From Myxococcales bacterium (lineage in GTDB: Bacteria; Myxococcota_A; Polyangia; Fen-1088), in contig PMKP01000223.1 in assembly GCA_003157775.1 (NCBI GenBank), positions 1 through 47,956 of the forward strand: 47,956 nt of DNA. The letters are read 5' to 3'. Under the pieces are notes generated by a model that saw only the letters and a list, made by a program, of their open reading frames with translations, ran no database searches and was not told where the DNA came from. The stretch's first letter is position 1. Each line of letters begins with the position of its first letter. Made by a program: the position numbers and the translations under genes. This document shows, one piece after another, positions 5,938 to 45,549 of this stretch.

Positions 5938-7311
5938 CTACTTCTTCGCTGGAGCCGCGGCGTAGACTTGGCCAAGGTCGGTCAAGGTGTCGTCGGTGTT
6001 GTAAACTTCACAGTTCGGGGACCACTGGTACCAGGCATAGCGCGCAAGTCGCGGGTGTTTGGCAAAGACCGCGAGCGCTCCGTTGAAAAAGGCGATCACT
6101 CCCGCTGCGGTCGGGGCGCTCTGGTTCAAGCAGCCCCACTCAGTCAGCCAAATGGGGCGATTGCCAGGAAAGCTTTCCGCGTAGTTGATGTAGCTCTCAA
6201 GCTGTGAGGCCGCGGCGTCGCACGAGCCTGCGTTCCAGCCGTACCAGTGAATGGCGATGAAGTCGGCTCGCAGCGCGGTGTTGGCCGCAACGTCCGCCAT
6301 GTACTCTTTGAACCACGCTTGCCCGGTGGTGTTGGCCTGAGTCCCGGGCGTTCCCACCGCGATGTTTGCCACACTATCGAATGCCGGCAAGAGCGCAATC
6401 GCCGACGCCACTGTGATGTTGGACCCACCCCCCGCCGCCGTGTTGTCCGGCTCATTGAAGCCAAGCACGTACTTGGAGCCCTTGCTCGCGAAGCCCGCGA
6501 CAGCGGTCTGGATGTTGGCCGCGGTATCCGCGCCCCAAATCATGGGCACATACTCGACGCCGTTCACGACAGCGCACGCCTCGTTCTCGGTCCCGGACCA
6601 GTTGTAATACCAGGACACGTTCATGGCAGTGCGCACCTTGCACGCCCCGCCGGCGATGCCCTTGAACGGCTGCCCACCGCCCGTGCCGCTTGCTCCACCG
6701 CCACCGGCGCCGCCCGTGACAATTGCGCCGCCGGCTAGCTTGCCGCCTGTACCTGTGCTGCCGCCTTTGCCACCTGTCGTGCCGCCGGTGCCCGCACCGC
6801 CGCCACTTCCTGCGCTGCCGCCGCTTCCTATGCCACCACCAGTACCTGGAACGCCACCGGTGCCGACGCTGCCGCCCCTGGATACGCTGCCACCGGTACT
6901 GCCGCCGCTGGCGACACTCCCGCCGTTGCCGACACTCCCACCGGTGCCTACGCTGCCGCCGCTAGCTGGACTCCCGCCGCTGGACACGCTCCCGCCGGTG
7001 CCTACAGTGCCACCGCTGGCTGCACTTCCGCCGGTGCCCACAGTGCCACCGCTGGCTGGACTCCCGCCGCTGCCTACAGTGCCACCGCTGGCTGCACTCC
7101 CGCCACTTCCTACACCGCCGCCGCTGCCGGTGCTTCCACCGCTGCTCTTGACTCCGCTCTGACCTCCTGAGCCCAACGTCCCACCTGTGCCAGTGTCAGA
7201 TGCGCTGCCGGGGCTAGAGCAACCGGCTCCAAGTAGCGCGATGAGTGTGCCGCAACAGAATGCGAAACCCGTAAACGACGGTAGCAGATCAGTTTTCATA
7301 TTCTCACTCAT
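5938..7311 (-). CDS. GH128-type glycoside hydrolase lipoprotein with long Gly-rich linker
   Basis: 457 residues from the ATG at 7311 (a second ATG at 7299 is possible; the frame upstream does not look coding). Lipoprotein signal with lipobox LLGAGC. Residues about 38-195 are a Gly/Ser/Thr/Val linker built of GGS/GGT blocks. The catalytic domain (about 205-457) is an Asl1/GH128-like TIM barrel: NVSWYYNWSG at its start, GFNEPDN with probable acid/base Glu287, IAIHWYGWN, and LTEWGC with probable nucleophile Glu391. Characterised GH128 enzymes cleave beta-1,3-glucans, so a role in degrading fungal, algal or plant glucan at the cell surface is likely. Palindromes at 7375-7417 lie upstream of the start. 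Confidence 0.88.
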   Translation of the reverse strand: MSENMKTDLLPSFTGFAFCCGTLIALLGAGCSSPGSASDTGTGGTLGSGGQSGVKSSGGSTGSGGGVGSGGSAASGGTVGSGGSPASGGTVGTGGSAASGGTVGTGGSVSSGGSPASGGSVGTGGSVGNGGSVASGGSTGGSVSRGGSVGTGGVPGTGGGIGSGGSAGSGGGAGTGGTTGGKGGSTGTGGKLAGGAIVTGGAGGGGASGTGGGQPFKGIAGGACKVRTAMNVSWYYNWSGTENEACAVVNGVEYVPMIWGADTAANIQTAVAGFASKGSKYVLGFNEPDNTAAGGGSNITVASAIALLPAFDSVANIAVGTPGTQANTTGQAWFKEYMADVAANTALRADFIAIHWYGWNAGSCDAAASQLESYINYAESFPGNRPIWLTEWGCLNQSAPTAAGVIAFFNGALAVFAKHPRLARYAWYQWSPNCEVYNTDDTLTDLGQVYAAAPAKK

Positions 7312-7374
7312 GAGAACGGCAATTCCACCTCTTCGTCCGCCTGGTGCAGACCGCGGATAACTACTCACGACGTA

Positions 7375-7417
7375 GGTGGATAGTATCATATCCACCACTC
7401 TATAGGCTTGACTCAAG
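7375..7417. promoter_or_regulatory. Two palindromes upstream of the GH128 gene
   Basis: GGTGGATA (7375-7382) and TATCCACC (7389-7396) are exact inverted repeats around a 6-nt centre. A second palindrome, CTTGA-C-TCAAG, occupies 7407-7417. Both lie 64-106 bp before the start at 7311, in the position expected of operator sites. The first overlaps AT-rich sequence that could include a -10 element. The regulator is unknown. Confidence 0.4.
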
Positions 7418-7583
7418 TCTGACGCGGTAGCTGTCTCGCTGCGAAACGTCCGCACGGCGGAGGCGCTGGAGGAGCAGGCCAGCGCGACCTTCAGCCTCCT
7501 CACTTTTTTGCCGTCAAGCGAAAAGTGCAGCTTCGGTGTGCTCTTCGGCGGTGTGGGCTTGCGTGCGAAGACGTTCGGAACCT

Positions 7584-8609
7584 CTAGTAGATTTCCACTT
7601 CAGCCAAGTGGAAGAAGTTGGGCGGGGTGTTCAGGAGACGAACGTAGCGGCCTTCGGCGTGGAGGCCGCCTGCGGTCCATTGATCGAAGGTTTCTTTCCG
7701 TTCTCTCAGTAGCGTGAAGTTGATATTGTCCTTGCTCACTTCCAATTTGATGGGAACGGCCCGATCTTGGTAGCCGTCGGATCGGTTGTATGCGACCAGC
7801 TTGTTGAACTTGCGGACTGACCCGAGGTCGATGACTACCCATTGCTGGCCACCAGACTGCGTGTGGAAACCCATGTTGTTGCGGTCACCATCGACCAGCA
7901 GGCTGTGATCCGTTCCTTGCCAGGGATACTGGCTGCTGACGGTGACCGGGCAATGGAGCGCGATGTTGGGCTTTTCTAGTTTCCTGTCCAGCCAGTTCCC
8001 GCCGGTGGCAAGAAATGCGGCCAACACCAAAGCCGCGACTATCACGCGTAACCATCGCGCGACAAGCGCGCGGCCAAGGCGATTCGCCTCGAACTCAAGC
8101 GGCTCGGATAGCCTCGTGGCCAAGCCGCGCACGGCGCCAGCGAGGGACTCTCGATCTGCCCCGGTCAGTTTCGCGAGGGTGGCGTCCCGGTCCGGGGCAA
8201 GTATCGCTGTCAGCATCGAGCGTTGGGGAATCGTGAGCTTCGCGAATGCTTCCGCCAGCAGCGGCAGCTTGCGGGTGTTCGCCCAGTCGGTATCGCCAAG
8301 TGGCCCAACGCCGGAACGCAGACCTTCGCGCTCCAAGTAGGCGCGAACCAGCAAACCGACCCGATCGCAGTCAAGCAAAAGAGCCGCCAAGTTGCTCTCG
8401 CCAGTTTCTCCAATCTCGGCGACGTCGTCGGAAAGCTGGCGTGCGATGTCGAACCAGGCAAACCCGGGCTTGCCTGGGCCGAATGTGGCCTCGCGTGCCT
8501 CGGCCACGCGCGGCCCCATCCATAGGAGCCTGCTCAGCCAATTGGGCGTGGCTTGCTCTGACGCCACCGTTCTCTGGGCATTGACTTTTTCAGCTCGGTC
8601 ATCGCTCAT
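7584..8609 (-). CDS. Membrane-anchored discoidin (F5/8 type C) domain protein
   Basis: 341 residues, ATG at 8609. Residues 1-185 are a helical, probably cytoplasmic region with no recognised domain. A single transmembrane helix lies at about 187-203 (LRVIVAALVLAAFLA). Residues about 214-341 form a discoidin/coagulation factor 5/8 C-type domain: PNIALHCPVTVSSQYPWQGT, HSLLVDGD, QQWVVIDLGSVRKFNKLVAY, ending RYVRLL...HLAEVEIY, which is the classic closing strand. These domains bind glycans or other surfaces, so the exported half is probably a carbohydrate-binding module. The gene starts 32 bp after the stop of the upstream glycosyltransferase, on the same strand, so the two likely form an operon acting on a surface glycan. 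Confidence 0.82.
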   Translation of the reverse strand: MSDDRAEKVNAQRTVASEQATPNWLSRLLWMGPRVAEAREATFGPGKPGFAWFDIARQLSDDVAEIGETGESNLAALLLDCDRVGLLVRAYLEREGLRSGVGPLGDTDWANTRKLPLLAEAFAKLTIPQRSMLTAILAPDRDATLAKLTGADRESLAGAVRGLATRLSEPLEFEANRLGRALVARWLRVIVAALVLAAFLATGGNWLDRKLEKPNIALHCPVTVSSQYPWQGTDHSLLVDGDRNNMGFHTQSGGQQWVVIDLGSVRKFNKLVAYNRSDGYQDRAVPIKLEVSKDNINFTLLRERKETFDQWTAGGLHAEGRYVRLLNTPPNFFHLAEVEIY

Positions 8610-12724: not shown

Positions 12725-14410
12725 CTACTGTGGCTGCGTGTAGGGCACGCCGTTGGCATTGCAAAGGTAGAAGGCCTGGTACTGGGGGTCCGTCACTAGC
12801 CCCTTTTGGGTGGTCCAACTGATCGAGGCGCAGGAGGGACGGCAGCAGTCCTCCATGGTGGTGGTTTCGTACATATTGTTGGAACTGCCGGTCTTGGAGC
12901 GAAAGTCCGGATCCTTGGCTGCCTGCGCTGCAGTCGTCACGTTCTTTTTCACTGCGGGCAATCCCTGGGGTGCCAGCTTGCAGCCGGTGACTCGGGTGAG
13001 ATTCTCGGGGCACTCGACCTTCGCCACGTAGACCGACCAGTTGAGGTGATAGAAGGTATCGATCGTGTTCGCCTTGATGCAGCCACTTTGAGACTGCTGG
13101 GTCAGACCTGGGATATTCGAAGCGATCTCATCGCAGGCGTTTGCGGTCTTCTGTACGCAAGCCGGAGAGGTCAGGGTCGCCTCGGTAACCCAACTAACCG
13201 CGGTCTTGCACTCCTGATAGAGGCTTGCAGGCTTTACCCCACCTTGGCTTGGCTGACCGTCGGCTGGGTAACTGGTGTACATGTAGAGGCCCGATCCCGA
13301 CTTGGCTATGACATTGCCGCTGCTATCAACCACTCGCGCGCAGGCGTTGTTGGCCCCCAACCCACCGGCGGGCATGTACACGTCGAAAGTCGTCGGTGTG
13401 GCCCCCGTGTTGAATGCCTGCGCGATGAGCGGAGGCGGAACCGGGATGGCCGAGGCTGGAGGATTGGGATTGTCGGGATTGAGCTGCACTTGCCGGTCGT
13501 TGCTGGGGCTCGGATAGGCATAGACCAGTTGGTAGCATTGACAGCAGGCACTCTGAGCGTTGCCGTCGATCCCTCCTGGATCCCCAACGTCGTGTCCGAC
13601 AACCGCGTAGTGAAAGCCAATGTTTCCGTCGTCCGCCGCGGCTTGTTCCATCTCGGGGCTGAACAACTGGTTCCGCTGGCACATGAAGGTCATGTCGGGC
13701 TGAGCCTTGGTGCCGGTGGGGGGGGCCGCACAAGCGTTGGCGACCGTGCATTTCCCGCCACAGTCAGTGGTCGTGTCCCCGTCCAGACACCCCGTCTTGG
13801 CGTTGTAGTCGTAGGGGATGAAGTCTTGATCGTGGCACTGATCGGGCGGCGGAAGCTTGTAGCTAACTGCGCTGCCACCCGCTCCCCCCGCGTCACCGGT
13901 CGTACCGGCTGTGCCACCGGCTCCCGCATTGCCCCCGCCGGCAGCCATGCCGCCGGCTCCGGCGTTTCCCCCGCTGACAGTCGAGCCGCCGGCTCCGGCA
14001 TTTCCCCCGCTGACAGTCGAGCCGCCGGTTCGGGTATTTCCCCCACTGGCAGTCGACCCGCCCGCTGGTTGCGTGCCGCCGACTGGTTGCGTGCCGCCGC
14101 TACTCGGGGCGCCGCCCATCGCCGTCGAGCCTGCCGTGGCGGTGGAGCCGCCCGTGCTCGTGCCGCCCGTGGTTGATCCGCCGTTTCCACCGGCAGCCGA
14201 CGAGCTTGAGGAGCCTGCGGAGCCGCCGTTCCCCGAGGCACCTCCGCTGCTCGTGCTTCCTCCTGCCGGCTTCGTGGAAGGCCCCGTCGATCCGCCATTG
14301 CCAGACCCAGTTGCCGTCACCTTGGCGCACGCCCCGACTCCTGCCATCAATGCGCACACGGCCCCTGTCGTTATGAGTCGTGGGAGTCGTATAGTCGCGA
14401 TGAAAGCCAT
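12725..14410 (-). CDS. GH45-like endoglucanase lipoprotein with circularly permuted catalytic domain
   Basis: 561 residues from ATG 14410, which opens the signal MAFIATIRLPRLITTGAVCA with lipobox-like GVGAC; the frame runs on upstream into the ygiQ region but only antisense-like. Residues about 32-180 are a GGS/GGT linker. The catalytic part (about 190-561) matches GH45 in pieces: DYNAKTGC (201-208), CCQCY (289-293), FDVYMPAGGLG with probable acid Asp343, then PENLTRVTGC near Cys467. The GH45 signature with the catalytic base, normally at the extreme N-terminus (T-R-Y-x-D-C-C-K-P-S-C), occurs instead at the C-terminus as TTTMEDCCRPSC (Asp521), followed by LCNANG, the segment that in fungal GH45 directly precedes the D-x-x-A-K-S-G-C block. 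The order is thus rotated. Predicted role: cellulose or glucan hydrolysis at the cell surface. Confidence 0.82.
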   Translation of the reverse strand: MAFIATIRLPRLITTGAVCALMAGVGACAKVTATGSGNGGSTGPSTKPAGGSTSSGGASGNGGSAGSSSSSAAGGNGGSTTGGTSTGGSTATAGSTAMGGAPSSGGTQPVGGTQPAGGSTASGGNTRTGGSTVSGGNAGAGGSTVSGGNAGAGGMAAGGGNAGAGGTAGTTGDAGGAGGSAVSYKLPPPDQCHDQDFIPYDYNAKTGCLDGDTTTDCGGKCTVANACAAPPTGTKAQPDMTFMCQRNQLFSPEMEQAAADDGNIGFHYAVVGHDVGDPGGIDGNAQSACCQCYQLVYAYPSPSNDRQVQLNPDNPNPPASAIPVPPPLIAQAFNTGATPTTFDVYMPAGGLGANNACARVVDSSGNVIAKSGSGLYMYTSYPADGQPSQGGVKPASLYQECKTAVSWVTEATLTSPACVQKTANACDEIASNIPGLTQQSQSGCIKANTIDTFYHLNWSVYVAKVECPENLTRVTGCKLAPQGLPAVKKNVTTAAQAAKDPDFRSKTGSSNNMYETTTMEDCCRPSCASISWTTQKGLVTDPQYQAFYLCNANGVPYTQPQ

Positions 14411-16783: not shown

Positions 16784-18181
16784 ATGATTGCATCTCGGTG
16801 TTCAGGTTTGGCATCTTTGTTGTCGCTGGGGTTGGCTGCCAGCCTGGCTGGCTGTTTGTCAGACGACCAGGGTTTGGCCGATCCATCGCCGCCAGTGTCC
16901 GGCGTCCAGTTCGCGTTGTCTACCAGCGGCCTCCCGACCTGCAGCAAGTCCGTAGACGGTGAAATCTGGTACGTGTGGAGTTCTAGCAATTTCTATGTCT
17001 GCAAGGGTTCTACCGCGACATGGACCGTGACCAACATCAGTGGCCTTAGTGCGGCAGTACGCGTGACTCCACTGAGCGCGGGCACAGCGTGCCCCGCTGG
17101 TGGAATGACCGTCCAATTCGGGCTGGACACGAACCGGAACGGGAAGCTGGACGATTCCGAGGTGGCGACCAGCACGAATGTCTGCAACGGCACCAATGGG
17201 GCGACAGGCGCCACCGGGGCGACAGGCGCTACCGGGGCCACGGGCGCCACCGGCCCGCAGGGTGCCAACGGGACTCCAGGAGCCACGGGAGCGACAGGCG
17301 CCACCGGGGCCACGGGCGCTACCGGCCCGCAGGGTGCCAACGGGCTCAACGGAAACAATGGGCTCAACGGAAACAACGGGCTCAACGGCGCTCCAGGTGC
17401 CACCGGGGCTACCGGGCCGAACTCCCTGGTCACGCTTACGCCTGAACCGGCAGGGACCAACTGTGCAAACGGCGGCGTCAAAATTGAGACGGGGCTCGAC
17501 AAGAACGGGGACAACATCCTGAGTGCCGACGAAGTGACGGACACGCAGTACGTATGCGATGGGGCCACTGGAGCAACCGGGGCGACGGGCGCGACAGGCG
17601 CAACGGGCGCGACGGGCCCCACTGGCGCAACGGGCGCTACCGGGGCAGCCGGGCCCAAAGGTGCGACAGGCGCAACGGGCGCCACAGGCGCGACGGGCGC
17701 GACAGGCGCAACGGGCGCGACAGGGGCGACGGGCGCAACGGGCGCGGCCGCCTACGCCCCGATCGTCACCTCTTGCAATAGTTATTACGCATCGGCCAAT
17801 CTCACCTCCGACAGCTACTACGACTACTTTGGCTGCTACATCTACGCGCCCGTCGCGGGCGGCACCGCCGTTGTGTCCGGAAACGCTCACTACTGGGTAT
17901 ACCGCGACGACGACACCTTCGACCTTATTTACATCTATGTCGGTAGCGCGTCCCTCTGCGCGGCCGGTTGCGATCTCGCAAACGCGCACAGGCAAGAGTA
18001 CAACTCCAACGCGGCGACGTACTGGAACCAGGAATCCGCCTCTGCGAGCGACACCTACTACTACGTCCCGGCGGGTTCCAATGCGTACTACTTGACCTCA
18101 TATTTTTCCACCAACGGATCGACCACGGTCTATTGGGATTCGGGCGCGATGTCCATAACCTGGTATCCGCCGGCGCCTTAG
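16784..18181 (+). CDS. Collagen-like surface lipoprotein with two Ca-loop-like modules
   Basis: 465 residues, ATG 16784 with SD AGGAGG (16772-16777). Lipoprotein signal with lipobox SLAGC. Two related modules (about 92-135 and 217-262) each contain a G-x-D-x-N-x-x-x-x-L-x-x-x-E-V loop, as in [15 protein letters not shown] (113-127) and [15 protein letters not shown], which resemble single EF-hand/dockerin-type calcium loops and the short repeats found beside collagen-like tracts in myxobacteria. Each is followed by a Gly-X-Y tract, mostly GAT with some GPQGAN and GLNGNN units. The C-terminal domain (about 325-465) is Tyr/Asn/Ser-rich, contains four or five Cys, and is probably a beta-sandwich head. 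The protein should form a lipid-anchored trimeric stalk with a head; the ligand is unknown. Confidence 0.85.
17200..17750 (+). repeat. Collagen-like coding repeats (Gly-Ala-Thr triplets)
   Basis: 9-bp units encoding Gly-Ala-Thr (ggcgcgacg and close variants) are tandemly repeated in three blocks: about 17200-17330, 17386-17420 and 17562-17745, separated by the second Ca-loop-like module. Near-identical units make this tract prone to length change by slippage or recombination. Confidence 0.85.
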
Positions 18182-41856: not shown

Positions 41857-44800
41857 CTACGGAGTCGTCGGCACGGTCATCGGATTCGGGAAGTTGCCTG
41901 ACAGGAAGAGCATGGAATAGACGCCGAGCGATTCCTGGAAGTACCTGTCATTCTCGACGGTGGTTGACACGGCTTCTTCCATGGCTTCCTGCCGGATGTC
42001 CGAGGTGGTGGCCCCGCCATCATTGTACACGCTGACATACGAGCACATGGCCGAGTTGACCGTATAGGAGTTGTGGCCATTGGCCGGATCGCAACCGCTG
42101 ACGGTGCCATCTGGACCCATTGAATCACAAATCGTCGAGAACCGATTGGCATTGGGCTCGGGCGGATTGTTCTTGTAGAAACTATTGAAGTAGTTTTGAA
42201 CGTTGTCGATCTCCGCCTGGACGCGCGTCTTGCCGGGATAGTGATTAGAGGAGTTGGCGGCATTTTCCGGCAGGCTGGTATTGTCGCCGAACCAGGCAGC
42301 GTCGATGCCCACACGCCACAAGAAACGCTCCCATTCGTAGGGTTGGCCACCGCCAACGTTGGAGCAGGGAGCGCTCATTGAGCCTTCGTACCCGACAAAG
42401 CCCGGCTGCAACCCTGCCTGGTCGTAGCATCGCTCAAGCATCTCGTAGACGGTCTGGGCGGTCTTGTACCAGAAAGCTTGGTGGGTCTGCCCGTTGGCCG
42501 CCGTTGCCGCGCTGCCCAGTTTGGCAGCCAAGAAATCCCCGAACACCCGGAAATATCCCGGTGGGTAGTAATCCATGTGCACGTTTACCGACATGTTGCC
42601 GGTCTGGTAGGTGCAAGGCCCGTTGGGATAGTTCTGACAGTCCTTGGGTCCGGTGTCCCCTTCCGTGGGGTAGTTCCAGATTCCGTCGGCCTTGGTGTCG
42701 ATCTCGCATTCCATCTTGGTAAGCCAGTCGATAGCGAATTGGGTGTACTTATCCGGCCATTGCAGGGCTGCGAACACCAACCCAATCGCGATGTCCACGT
42801 CACCATCGAAGGCGCTGTCTTCATTCCCGCCGCAACTTTCCTTGGCCGGATCGCAGGGCGAATCGAGCGTCCGGCACGGAATGCTGCCATCCCACATCCA
42901 GCCCATGAGGCCGCCACAGTACTTGTCCGCGGCTTGCGAGAGAAAATGCCGGACGAAATTCCACAAGGCATCGAAGGTTGGCTGGTCGCCGATGGCAGCG
43001 GCAATGGCCATACCATAGCCCTGGCCCTCGCTTACCGTCTTGGGTGGGTCGGTCTTGATGCGCGCGGTACCCGGGCCGCACACGGTATCGGTGGTCGTGA
43101 CGTAGTTGTCTCTCCAGATCAGGTACCGCTGGTACACAAAGGTATTCAGCAGCTCTTGGACGCTAGCTACCTCGGTATAGATGTAGGCCAACGATCCTCC
43201 GTTGGGATAGAGGTAGTTGGTGCTGGCGTACGGGAACCAACCCCCGAATCCCACGGTGATGGGCGTGGCCGGCGGTTTGGGCGCGCAGGCGCTGTCGTTC
43301 CAGTTGCCCGTGGCGGACCAATCGCCGCCGTCTCCGTCCGGATAGTAGGTGAAGAACTTGAAACGGCTGGTGGCCGGGATGTCGGGTTTGCCGTAGTCCC
43401 AGCGCAGCCAGTATTCGTTAGGCGTGTCGGGGAAGGGACGCGGCTGGACGGTGTTCCACTCGGGGTTGTGGGTCTTGTCCACCGCCCGCCAGGTGGCATT
43501 CGCGACAAAGAATGCATCAGGGACAGGACAATTGAACCACGGGCGATCGGCCTCGCGGAAGCAGATGACCTTGTTGCTGGTCACCTCCATTTCCATCCAT
43601 TTGGGCATGAGCGCGGGCTTGGGGAAGAAAGTGAAGGTCTTCTGTCCGGCCCAGATATAGCGGAAGTGGACGGTGTGGAAGTTGTTTGGAACCGGCGGGC
43701 TGCAGGGATCGACCGGGCCGGTGGACCCACCGCAGTAGGCATATCCAGGACCGGGGTTCTTCGTGTAGAAGTAGTAGGTGAGTGGATCTTGTGACCAGTC
43801 CATGCACATGGGAATGGACGCCGCGGTGTTGTCTGGCGCGCCCGCGTAGCCGATCCAGTATTCGTTGACGCCGGTAGTGAGCACGGGCAGGGGCAGATTC
43901 GGCGTCCACAAACCCACGCTATCATCAGGGTAACGGAATGTGATGTTCACCGGGTTTGCGGCGGTCTTCGTCCAGTCGCTGGTGGGGATGAGCACGAAGT
44001 ACCAGGGGCAATTGCCGTCCTGGTATTCGAGCATGGCCTGCATCTCGCAGCCCACCCCAGTGACTTTCAGGCTGCTGGGGTAGGGGGGCGTGTCGTAGCC
44101 CAGCTTGACCTTTCCACAGGCCGAGCCCGGGAATCCGGTCTCCTGCGGATCGCCCCAGGGCCAGCGGAAGTGAACCTTGATGTAACCGCTCGGGACGGAT
44201 TGATCGGGCTGTCCTTGCGGGCACGCTTCGGAAGCGACCACGGTCTTGTCGTTGGTGAGGCGGAAATGCTGGTTTCCCACAGTGGCGTTGGGATAGGCGC
44301 TGTAGTCAGCAGCCAGGGTGCTGGACGGGCCGGTGTAGTCAAGCCAGATGTCAGGGCTGGTGGGCGCCAGTTTCGAGATATCGAAGTCGCCCGAGGGGTT
44401 GCCGCTGGGGCAGCCATCAGGACCGATCGGCTTGATCTGGATAGTGGTCAAGGTGTTGGGGATACACACCGAATACCAAGAACAGCTCGCCGAGTCCTGG
44501 CGCGCACCGTACTGCACGTAGCTCCCGGTTGGGTTGATGACGAGAACCGACAACGGTGGAGCAGACATCGTGTTCATGGTCGGGTTGACCCCGCTCGACC
44601 AGATGTCTCGTATGTGCATGCGGACCTCCCCGACTGGACAAGAGAAGGTCTCGCCCTGGTCCGGCGATAGATCCGGCGACGGCGGCCGGGTATCGGGAGG
44701 GGGGGGCGGGGCAGCATCGTGAGCAGCTTGGCCCCCGGTTGAACTCGTCGTGGCAATGGTGGTGCCGCCTGTAGAGACGGCTGTGTTGCCGCCCATGCCT

Positions 44801-45129
44801 TCGATGCCGCCCATAGTCACCGTACCGCCAGACGCCGGCACGCCGCCTGTGCTAACAGTTCCCCCGCTCGCGAACGGGTTCCGCCCGGAAGACGAGGAAG
44901 CGGTCGTCGTGGCAATCGTGGTTCCGCCTGAGGCAGTGCTTGCGTCGGGTTCTTCTGACCACACATGGCCGAATGTCCCGCTCGACATGGGATGGGCGTT
45001 GCAGCTCCACAGCACGAGGAGCATGCCTGTGGTCAGCAAGAACCAGCGCGTTACGTTCCAGGTTGCTCGCACGACCTGACGCAGCCTTGCCGGTAGTCGG
45101 CGGCTATTCGAAGATTGAACCATGGTCAT
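41857..45129 (-). CDS. Very large GH8 endoglucanase lipoprotein with three accessory modules
   Basis: 1090 residues from ATG 45129; ATG 45123 is equally possible and better spaced from the only SD-like AGG. Signal with lipobox LVLWSC; then a Gly/Ser/Thr linker to about 165. Three related modules follow at about 168-305, 315-470 and 484-615. Each begins with a strand like RMHIRDIW, KVHFRWPWG or TVHFRYIWAG and closes DIWLDYTG, EYWIGYAG or EYWLRWDYG, suggesting tandem carbohydrate-binding modules. The catalytic domain (about 620-1090) is GH8: VSEGQGYGM with acid Glu701, FDGDVDIAIGL (Asp775-Asp779), NMSVNVHMDYYPPGYFRVFG and YEWERFLWRVGIDAAWFGDN. Predicted cellulase or beta-glucanase on the cell surface. 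A structured RNA hairpin overlaps the translation start. Confidence 0.9.
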   Translation of the reverse strand: MTMVQSSNSRRLPARLRQVVRATWNVTRWFLLTTGMLLVLWSCNAHPMSSGTFGHVWSEEPDASTASGGTTIATTTASSSSGRNPFASGGTVSTGGVPASGGTVTMGGIEGMGGNTAVSTGGTTIATTSSTGGQAAHDAAPPPPPDTRPPSPDLSPDQGETFSCPVGEVRMHIRDIWSSGVNPTMNTMSAPPLSVLVINPTGSYVQYGARQDSASCSWYSVCIPNTLTTIQIKPIGPDGCPSGNPSGDFDISKLAPTSPDIWLDYTGPSSTLAADYSAYPNATVGNQHFRLTNDKTVVASEACPQGQPDQSVPSGYIKVHFRWPWGDPQETGFPGSACGKVKLGYDTPPYPSSLKVTGVGCEMQAMLEYQDGNCPWYFVLIPTSDWTKTAANPVNITFRYPDDSVGLWTPNLPLPVLTTGVNEYWIGYAGAPDNTAASIPMCMDWSQDPLTYYFYTKNPGPGYAYCGGSTGPVDPCSPPVPNNFHTVHFRYIWAGQKTFTFFPKPALMPKWMEMEVTSNKVICFREADRPWFNCPVPDAFFVANATWRAVDKTHNPEWNTVQPRPFPDTPNEYWLRWDYGKPDIPATSRFKFFTYYPDGDGGDWSATGNWNDSACAPKPPATPITVGFGGWFPYASTNYLYPNGGSLAYIYTEVASVQELLNTFVYQRYLIWRDNYVTTTDTVCGPGTARIKTDPPKTVSEGQGYGMAIAAAIGDQPTFDALWNFVRHFLSQAADKYCGGLMGWMWDGSIPCRTLDSPCDPAKESCGGNEDSAFDGDVDIAIGLVFAALQWPDKYTQFAIDWLTKMECEIDTKADGIWNYPTEGDTGPKDCQNYPNGPCTYQTGNMSVNVHMDYYPPGYFRVFGDFLAAKLGSAATAANGQTHQAFWYKTAQTVYEMLERCYDQAGLQPGFVGYEGSMSAPCSNVGGGQPYEWERFLWRVGIDAAWFGDNTSLPENAANSSNHYPGKTRVQAEIDNVQNYFNSFYKNNPPEPNANRFSTICDSMGPDGTVSGCDPANGHNSYTVNSAMCSYVSVYNDGGATTSDIRQEAMEEAVSTTVENDRYFQESLGVYSMLFLSGNFPNPMTVPTTP

Positions 45130-45130
45130 T

Positions 45131-45191
45131 CGCCTGTAGCCCAAAGAGCTTCGTGTAACGATAGCACCCTGCTGGGCTAACAGGAAAGGCG
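45131..45191 (-). promoter_or_regulatory. Long structured hairpin at the GH8 translation start
   Basis: In mRNA sense (minus strand), the 5' arm CGCC...TGTTAGCCCA (45191-45173) pairs with the 3' arm TGGGCTACAGGCG (45143-45131) with one bulge. Inside sits a second hairpin, GCTATCGT-TAC-ACGAAGC (about 45165-45148). The 3' arm contains the AGG that would serve as the ribosome-binding site and ends one base before the ATG at 45129. It could act as a translational switch or thermometer. No known riboswitch consensus is recognised. Confidence 0.55.
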
Positions 45192-45549
45192 AACCGAATG
45201 GGAAGTGTGGGTTTGGTGACGGCCCTGGGCATGGCTGTCTCTGCGCGCCAACCTGTGGTTCCGGGGCCGTGGAGGCCGGGAGGATCATTCGTCGGTGAAT
45301 CGCTGCGCGAGGCGCTGCTTGACGAGCAGTTTGGAGAGGGGTTTCTGCAAGGGCCTCGGCTTCGGTCGTGCCCGAGTGCGCCAGGGAGGCGTCTTCGCGA
45401 CCGGCGCGACCTTGCAGAGGGCGCGGGAAGGGGTAGAAGGCACACTGTGAGCGGTAGCGTAGCTGAGCCAGACGGGGCGATAGCTGCTACTGCACCCGTA
45501 CCGTTGGGTGAGTGACCTGCGGCGGGCCGATCGCCAAGAGTAGCAAGAC
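45192..45549. other. Intergenic region between divergent GH8 and beta-helix genes
   Basis: No gene is supported. On the minus strand, a frame ending at 45285 (TGA 45287-45285) reads a basic peptide (KPRPLQKPLSKLLVKQRLAQ) with coding-like third positions but no convincing start, so it may be the tail of a lost gene. The region must carry promoters for both divergent genes; none is clear. Confidence 0.35.

Follow-up and report, generated by a model that had tools for sequence, protein, structure and literature searches.

The gene that runs on the minus strand from an ATG at position 14410 to position 12725 of the window (the whole stretch of DNA analysed, 47,956 nucleotides from a soil myxobacterium of the Myxococcales) very probably encodes a naturally circularly permuted GH45 lipoprotein, subfamily-A-like and base-containing, that hydrolyses beta-1,4-glucan. 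This variant of GH45 is real and new. Our analysis shows the order, the homology, the fold class, the conservation and the purifying selection; the Asp-Asp geometry, the catalysis, the substrate and the lipid anchor are parts of the reading that we infer. The original prediction, made from the sequence alone, was that the first part of a GH45 domain had been moved to its end, and this permutation is supported by rotation scans, PDB matches in permuted order, a fold search, conserved Asp and Cys residues and a base-last order throughout the family.

The frame encodes 561 residues plus a stop, and its parts are listed in the table. The protein begins with a signal and a lipobox-like stretch (MAFIATIRLPRLITTGAVCALMAGVGAC), and a pattern search found lipobox-like sequences at about half of the homologue N-termini; the protein is probably secreted and anchored by lipid in the outer membrane. 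A Gly/Ser-rich linker follows, which in homologues spans 57-356 residues and is in many of them low in complexity, and the Cys-rich domain occupies residues ~185-561. Within this domain the motifs lie in the predicted order, namely DYNAKTGC, CCQCY, FDVYMPAGGLG (with Asp343), PENLTRVTGC, TTTMEDCCRPSC (with Asp521) and, at the extreme C-terminus, LCNANG, and the numbering of both Asp residues was correct. The acid motif and the motif of the old C-terminus, ECPxxLTRVTGC, precede the base segment (DCCxPxC) at 513-561. We looked upstream for a full N-terminal GH45 signature, which would have spoken against a permutation, and found none: residues 1-28 are signal-like and ~29-184 are linker. Two details of the prediction need revision. 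The relocated piece is ~49 residues long (513-561) rather than about 35, and the stretch that does join the old ends after residue 480 is not a loose linker, as residues ~481-512 are conserved and confidently modelled.

Table. Features of the permuted gene and its product (positions in the window)
Feature	Position	Strand	Basis
Gene, circularly permuted GH45-like protein, 561 aa + stop	12725..14410	-	homologues 42-93% identical; domain dN/dS 0.10-0.21
Signal sequence, residues 1-28, ending in lipobox-like LMAGVGAC, probable lipidated Cys28	14327..14410	-	sequence
Gly/Ser/Thr/Ala-rich linker, residues ~29-184	13859..14326	-	sequence
GH45 domain core, residues ~185-480, canonical ~C47 to C199; CCQCY, FDVYMPAGGLG, ECPENLTRVTGC	12971..13858	-	hhalign against canonical GH45; PDB profile matches; AF2
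Asp343, counterpart of Asp121, the catalytic acid (proton donor) in Humicola Cel45A	13382..13384	-	alignment; invariant 46/46
Strap, residues 481-512, old C-terminus to old N-terminus	12875..12970	-	conserved GLPxVxPxVTTxxQA; AF2 pLDDT ~87-98 over corresponding blocks
Moved segment, residues 513-561, canonical N-terminus: strand b1, catalytic-base loop DCCRPSC, FYLC / C31 equivalent	12728..12874	-	hhalign; AF2
Asp521, counterpart of Asp10, the catalytic base in Humicola Cel45A	12848..12850	-	alignment; invariant 46/46

Elsewhere in the window, a Glyco_hydro_cc (PF11790) protein and an F5/8 type C (galactose-binding) protein adjoin each other (5938-7503 and 7584-8609, both minus strand) ~4-5 kb from the permuted gene. 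A collagen-like repeat protein with DUF7151 repeats is encoded at 16784-18181 (plus strand), and the 1143-residue frame at 41857-45288 (minus strand), possibly a divergent or altered GH8, matches that family only in part (residues 721-850 against profile positions 27-136 of 341).

Comparison of profiles supports the permutation. When an alignment of 46 permuted members was rotated stepwise and compared by hhalign with a canonical profile (35 bacterial and three fungal sequences), the native order scored 104.5, starts at 480-522 scored 136-146 and starts at 528 or later fell to ~102; with smaller alignments the native order scored 95.7 and starts at 483-518 scored 123-128. In the best rotations almost the whole canonical model is covered (columns 1 or 7 to 226 of 235). 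Starts placed beyond the acid motif but still within the core form a side plateau of 119-120, since they too put the moved segment ahead of that motif. One may ask if the DCCxPxC segment is not a displaced GH45 N-terminus but a chance or convergent Cys-rich motif, given that Cys-rich segments match readily and that this one is short (26-27 aligned columns). We consider this very improbable, since (i) the moved segment alone scored 54.7 against canonical GH45, whereas none of 300 column shuffles exceeded 21.8 and the reversed segment reached 13.0, controls relative to which alone the one-against-one E-values of hhalign are meaningful; (ii) the match falls on canonical columns 7-32, the exact N-terminus; (iii) the rotation optimum is sharp and (iv) the core is without any other base segment. 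Searched against the PDB, the family profile (46 members) gave 10 matches, all to GH45 or cellulase entries and the best at 1.5e-10, and the matched stretches stand in permuted order in both printed alignments. In that to 6mvi, for example, profile positions 317-343 align with chain residues 20-45, 109-179 with 102-162 and 270-294 with 203-228.

Single-sequence searches behave quite differently. It had been proposed that a GH45 profile run against a duplicated copy of the domain would give one full-length match across the joint; plain single-sequence HMMER gave no spanning match in 44 of 46 members, likely because extra residues separate the joined pieces, and the expectation held only for profile-profile comparison of rotated alignments. 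Rotating or mid-rotating single sequences for HMMER brought no useful gain. In Pfam, the window protein has no match to PF02015 even at E=10, native or hand-rotated, and so lies below the curated cut-off of that profile; it has no NCBIfam match in native order, and alone it reached nothing in the PDB by phmmer, GH45 being reached only by the family profile. PF02015 matched five of 24 family members at E<=0.01, and these matches are partial (e.g. 43-165 of 214). With the family profile, by contrast to the single protein, canonical GH45 genes are picked up across the class, often at E 1e-6 to 1e-10. Given that Pfam and NCBIfam miss most of the permuted members tested, bacterial GH45 is probably undercounted; a 2024 survey lists it in only 31 of 16,401 bacterial species (PMC13084967).

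Structure prediction points the same way. AlphaFold2, run on the native-order family alignment, gave a model with a pLDDT of 93.8 and a pTM of 0.92, although its training included GH45 structures, so that this evidence is not wholly independent. In the model, residues 513-518 form a strand that leads into the base loop, and the C-terminal 50 residues have a pLDDT of 91-96. Foldseek against the PDB returned six matches at E<=0.001, all GH45, and for a second, divergent member (L092), whose first 55 residues are disordered and whose core is confident, likewise only GH45 matches at that threshold. The target TM-scores were 0.46-0.57, as expected of a sequential comparison if one strand is out of order; being order-dependent, Foldseek shows the fold class and not a strand-by-strand superposition. 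The model would thus assign the domain, at the level of fold class, to the GH45 double-psi barrel. Of the structural check proposed at the outset, the model confidence and the fold class agree with the permutation; that Asp521 would fall beside Asp343 is a prediction from them. In principle, the C-terminal segment could instead complete the barrel of a neighbouring molecule in a domain-swapped dimer, as sequence and a single-chain prediction cannot separate intra- from intermolecular docking of the terminal strand. This arrangement seems improbable, however, given the conservation of the strap, the confidence with which it is modelled and the pTM of 0.92 that one chain reaches by itself.

The proton donor of Humicola Cel45A is Asp121 and its base is Asp10, 11.3 A away (PMC5829257). 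The base sits on a loop directly after strand b1 and is absent in subfamily C, expansins and loosenins (PMC10909974). As predicted, both residues are retained in the permuted protein and invariant in all 46 family members. Asp343 lies in an FD ahead of the GG motif, as the acid of GH45 does, and Asp521 stands between the strand at 513-518 and CC, in keeping with the base of GH45 subfamilies A and B, which comes just after strand b1. The family departs from canonical GH45 in linear order, its base segment not being N-terminal to the acid, and, with Asp521 invariant, from the base-less subfamily C and expansin-like proteins. The cysteines in DCC..C and CC.C, C176 and C286/C296 (domain numbering) are also invariant in 46 of 46, as are by alignment the equivalents of C11, C12, C16, C31, C56, C86, C87, C89, C135, C189 and C199, which make up the subfamily A framework. 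The canonical pairs are C11-C135, C12-C47, C16-C86 and C31-C56; the cysteines of the moved segment are invariant, and so are most of the core cysteines that they would face. The dN/dS ratios are low (domain, 0.10-0.21; moved segment, 0.15-0.27), and the gene product is therefore under selection. Given the invariant Asp and Cys residues and the purifying selection, we infer that the permuted protein is most likely a working inverting beta-1,4-endoglucanase.

A competing view is that the permuted GH45 fold has lost its cellulase function and either has a different polysaccharide of the wall as its target or, like expansins and loosenins, loosens or binds walls non-hydrolytically. Two features are in its favour. 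The canonical Arg7-Tyr8-Trp9 beside the base is Thr-Met-Glu/Gln in the family (M519 is invariant and residue 520 is E or Q), so the subsite near the base is changed, and there are family-own invariants without a canonical GH45 counterpart, namely Y268, G272-H273-D274, D282, H455, N457 and W458. Nevertheless, expansins, loosenins and subfamily C have no base (PMC10909974), and the invariance of both catalytic Asp residues makes a loss of cellulase function unlikely in our judgement. The invariants themselves (YxxxGHD, D282 and HxNW, at residues 268, 272-274, 282 and 455-458) may mark a metal site or new substrate contacts. We regard it as possible, though somewhat doubtful, that these surroundings together with the Met-Gln/Glu pair give the permuted lineage a new substrate or mechanism and a place in a GH family or subfamily of its own.

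The permuted GH45 is an old, conserved family in two phyla and not one odd gene. Among 59 related genomes there are about 25 homologues of the domain (42-93% identity), and scanning 84,980 species genomes yielded 52 loci, some in Myxococcota (Polyangia MAGs and the isolate Polyangium fumosum DSM 14668) and the others in Fibrobacterota/Chitinispirillaceae MAGs; searches of the class (318 genomes) and of the phylum of a MAG labelled Fibrobacter (168 genomes) agree with the genome scan. More than 40 related genes in the two bacterial phyla have the identical rearrangement. Among frames in which both motifs could be scored, the base came last in 52 of 52 distinct family frames and first in 42 of 42 canonical GH45 frames, with no mixed cases; this tally rests on motifs, and truncated copies of one gene may account for some of the frames. 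An artefact of assembly, binning or gene fusion in one metagenome genome might be suspected, as the genome of the window is fragmented (485 contigs), but dozens of independent genomes, among them that of the Polyangium fumosum isolate and one in two contigs, have this order too, and the chance of an artefact is close to nil. We found no permuted GH45 in viral, phage and plasmid collections and no paper on one in a literature search made largely without subscription journals.

Several individual members deserve mention. The genome of the window holds two permuted genes and one canonical, base-first GH45; the second permuted paralogue (L036, G000:C144:1740-2783) is 52% identical, and the canonical gene (L007, G000:C170:13192-13833) has a lipoprotein-like start and a similar Gly-rich linker. 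In two Fibrobacterota members (L055:3314-5089 and L072:3329-5062) an N-terminal carboxypeptidase-regulatory-like domain replaces the Gly-rich linker. At a locus of Polyangium sp. y55x31 (L099:3149-4168) only the C-terminal end of the permuted domain is in frame, and this may be a broken copy.

As to origin and mechanism, our working model is that a single event in the family's ancestor would have carried strand b1 and the catalytic-base loop from the front of the domain to its end, the conserved strap linking the old termini. The C-terminal strand would pack back into the barrel such that Asp521 faces Asp343 across the groove, and beta-1,4-glucan would be cut by single-step inversion, as in Humicola Cel45A. 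In an unrooted tree the permuted family forms one clade (support 100/100) with a long branch to canonical GH45; this fits a single permutation event followed by spread within Polyangia and by at least two arrivals in Fibrobacterota, probably through horizontal transfer. Circular permutations usually arise when a gene is duplicated in tandem and the outer parts of the pair are lost. Fibrobacterota genomes contain tandem arrays of two or three canonical GH45 genes (L147-L158 and other matches), a plausible starting point, and neighbouring canonical copies are present in a genome from the window's class (G056:C58). We found no full-length duplication intermediate with a base segment at both front and end, there being no mixed frame in the motif tally; odd Fibrobacter frames proved to be canonical genes cut at locus edges. 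We also set aside the idea that the permuted order is ancestral, since expansins and all GH45 subfamilies begin with strand b1, though the unrooted tree is no proof of this. Thanks to the canonical paralogues in the same genome and the Fibrobacter arrays, the route of permutation can be tested directly; for the engineering of cellulases, the new termini provide a natural scaffold.

With GH45 subfamily A (Humicola insolens Cel45A/EGV, Melanocarpus Cel45A and Neurospora Cel45A; PF02015) the permuted family has in common FDxxxxxGGxG, DCCxPxC, CCxCY and CPxxLxxxTGC, the cysteine set and the double-psi barrel fold class; it differs in having the base segment last, a new strap, additional residues ahead of the barrel and inside it, and the Thr-Met-Glu/Gln replacement. 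The canonical bacterial GH45 proteins of Myxococcota and Fibrobacterota (for example L007 and the Fibrobacter tandem genes) have a homologous domain and a similar secreted, multi-part architecture, but they are base-first and separated from the permuted family by a long branch, and the canonical myxobacterial proteins are without the second Cys of CCxC and the Cys of TGC, both of which the permuted family keeps. Subfamily C, expansins and loosenins share the double-psi barrel and the catalytic-acid motif but are unpermuted and without the Asp base. Few glycoside hydrolases have an active site that is naturally permuted such that the base lies on a relocated terminal strand. There is precedent for natural circular permutation defining a GH family of its own in the GH70 glucansucrases, permuted relatives of the GH13 alpha-amylases, although their fold and chemistry are unrelated to those of GH45.
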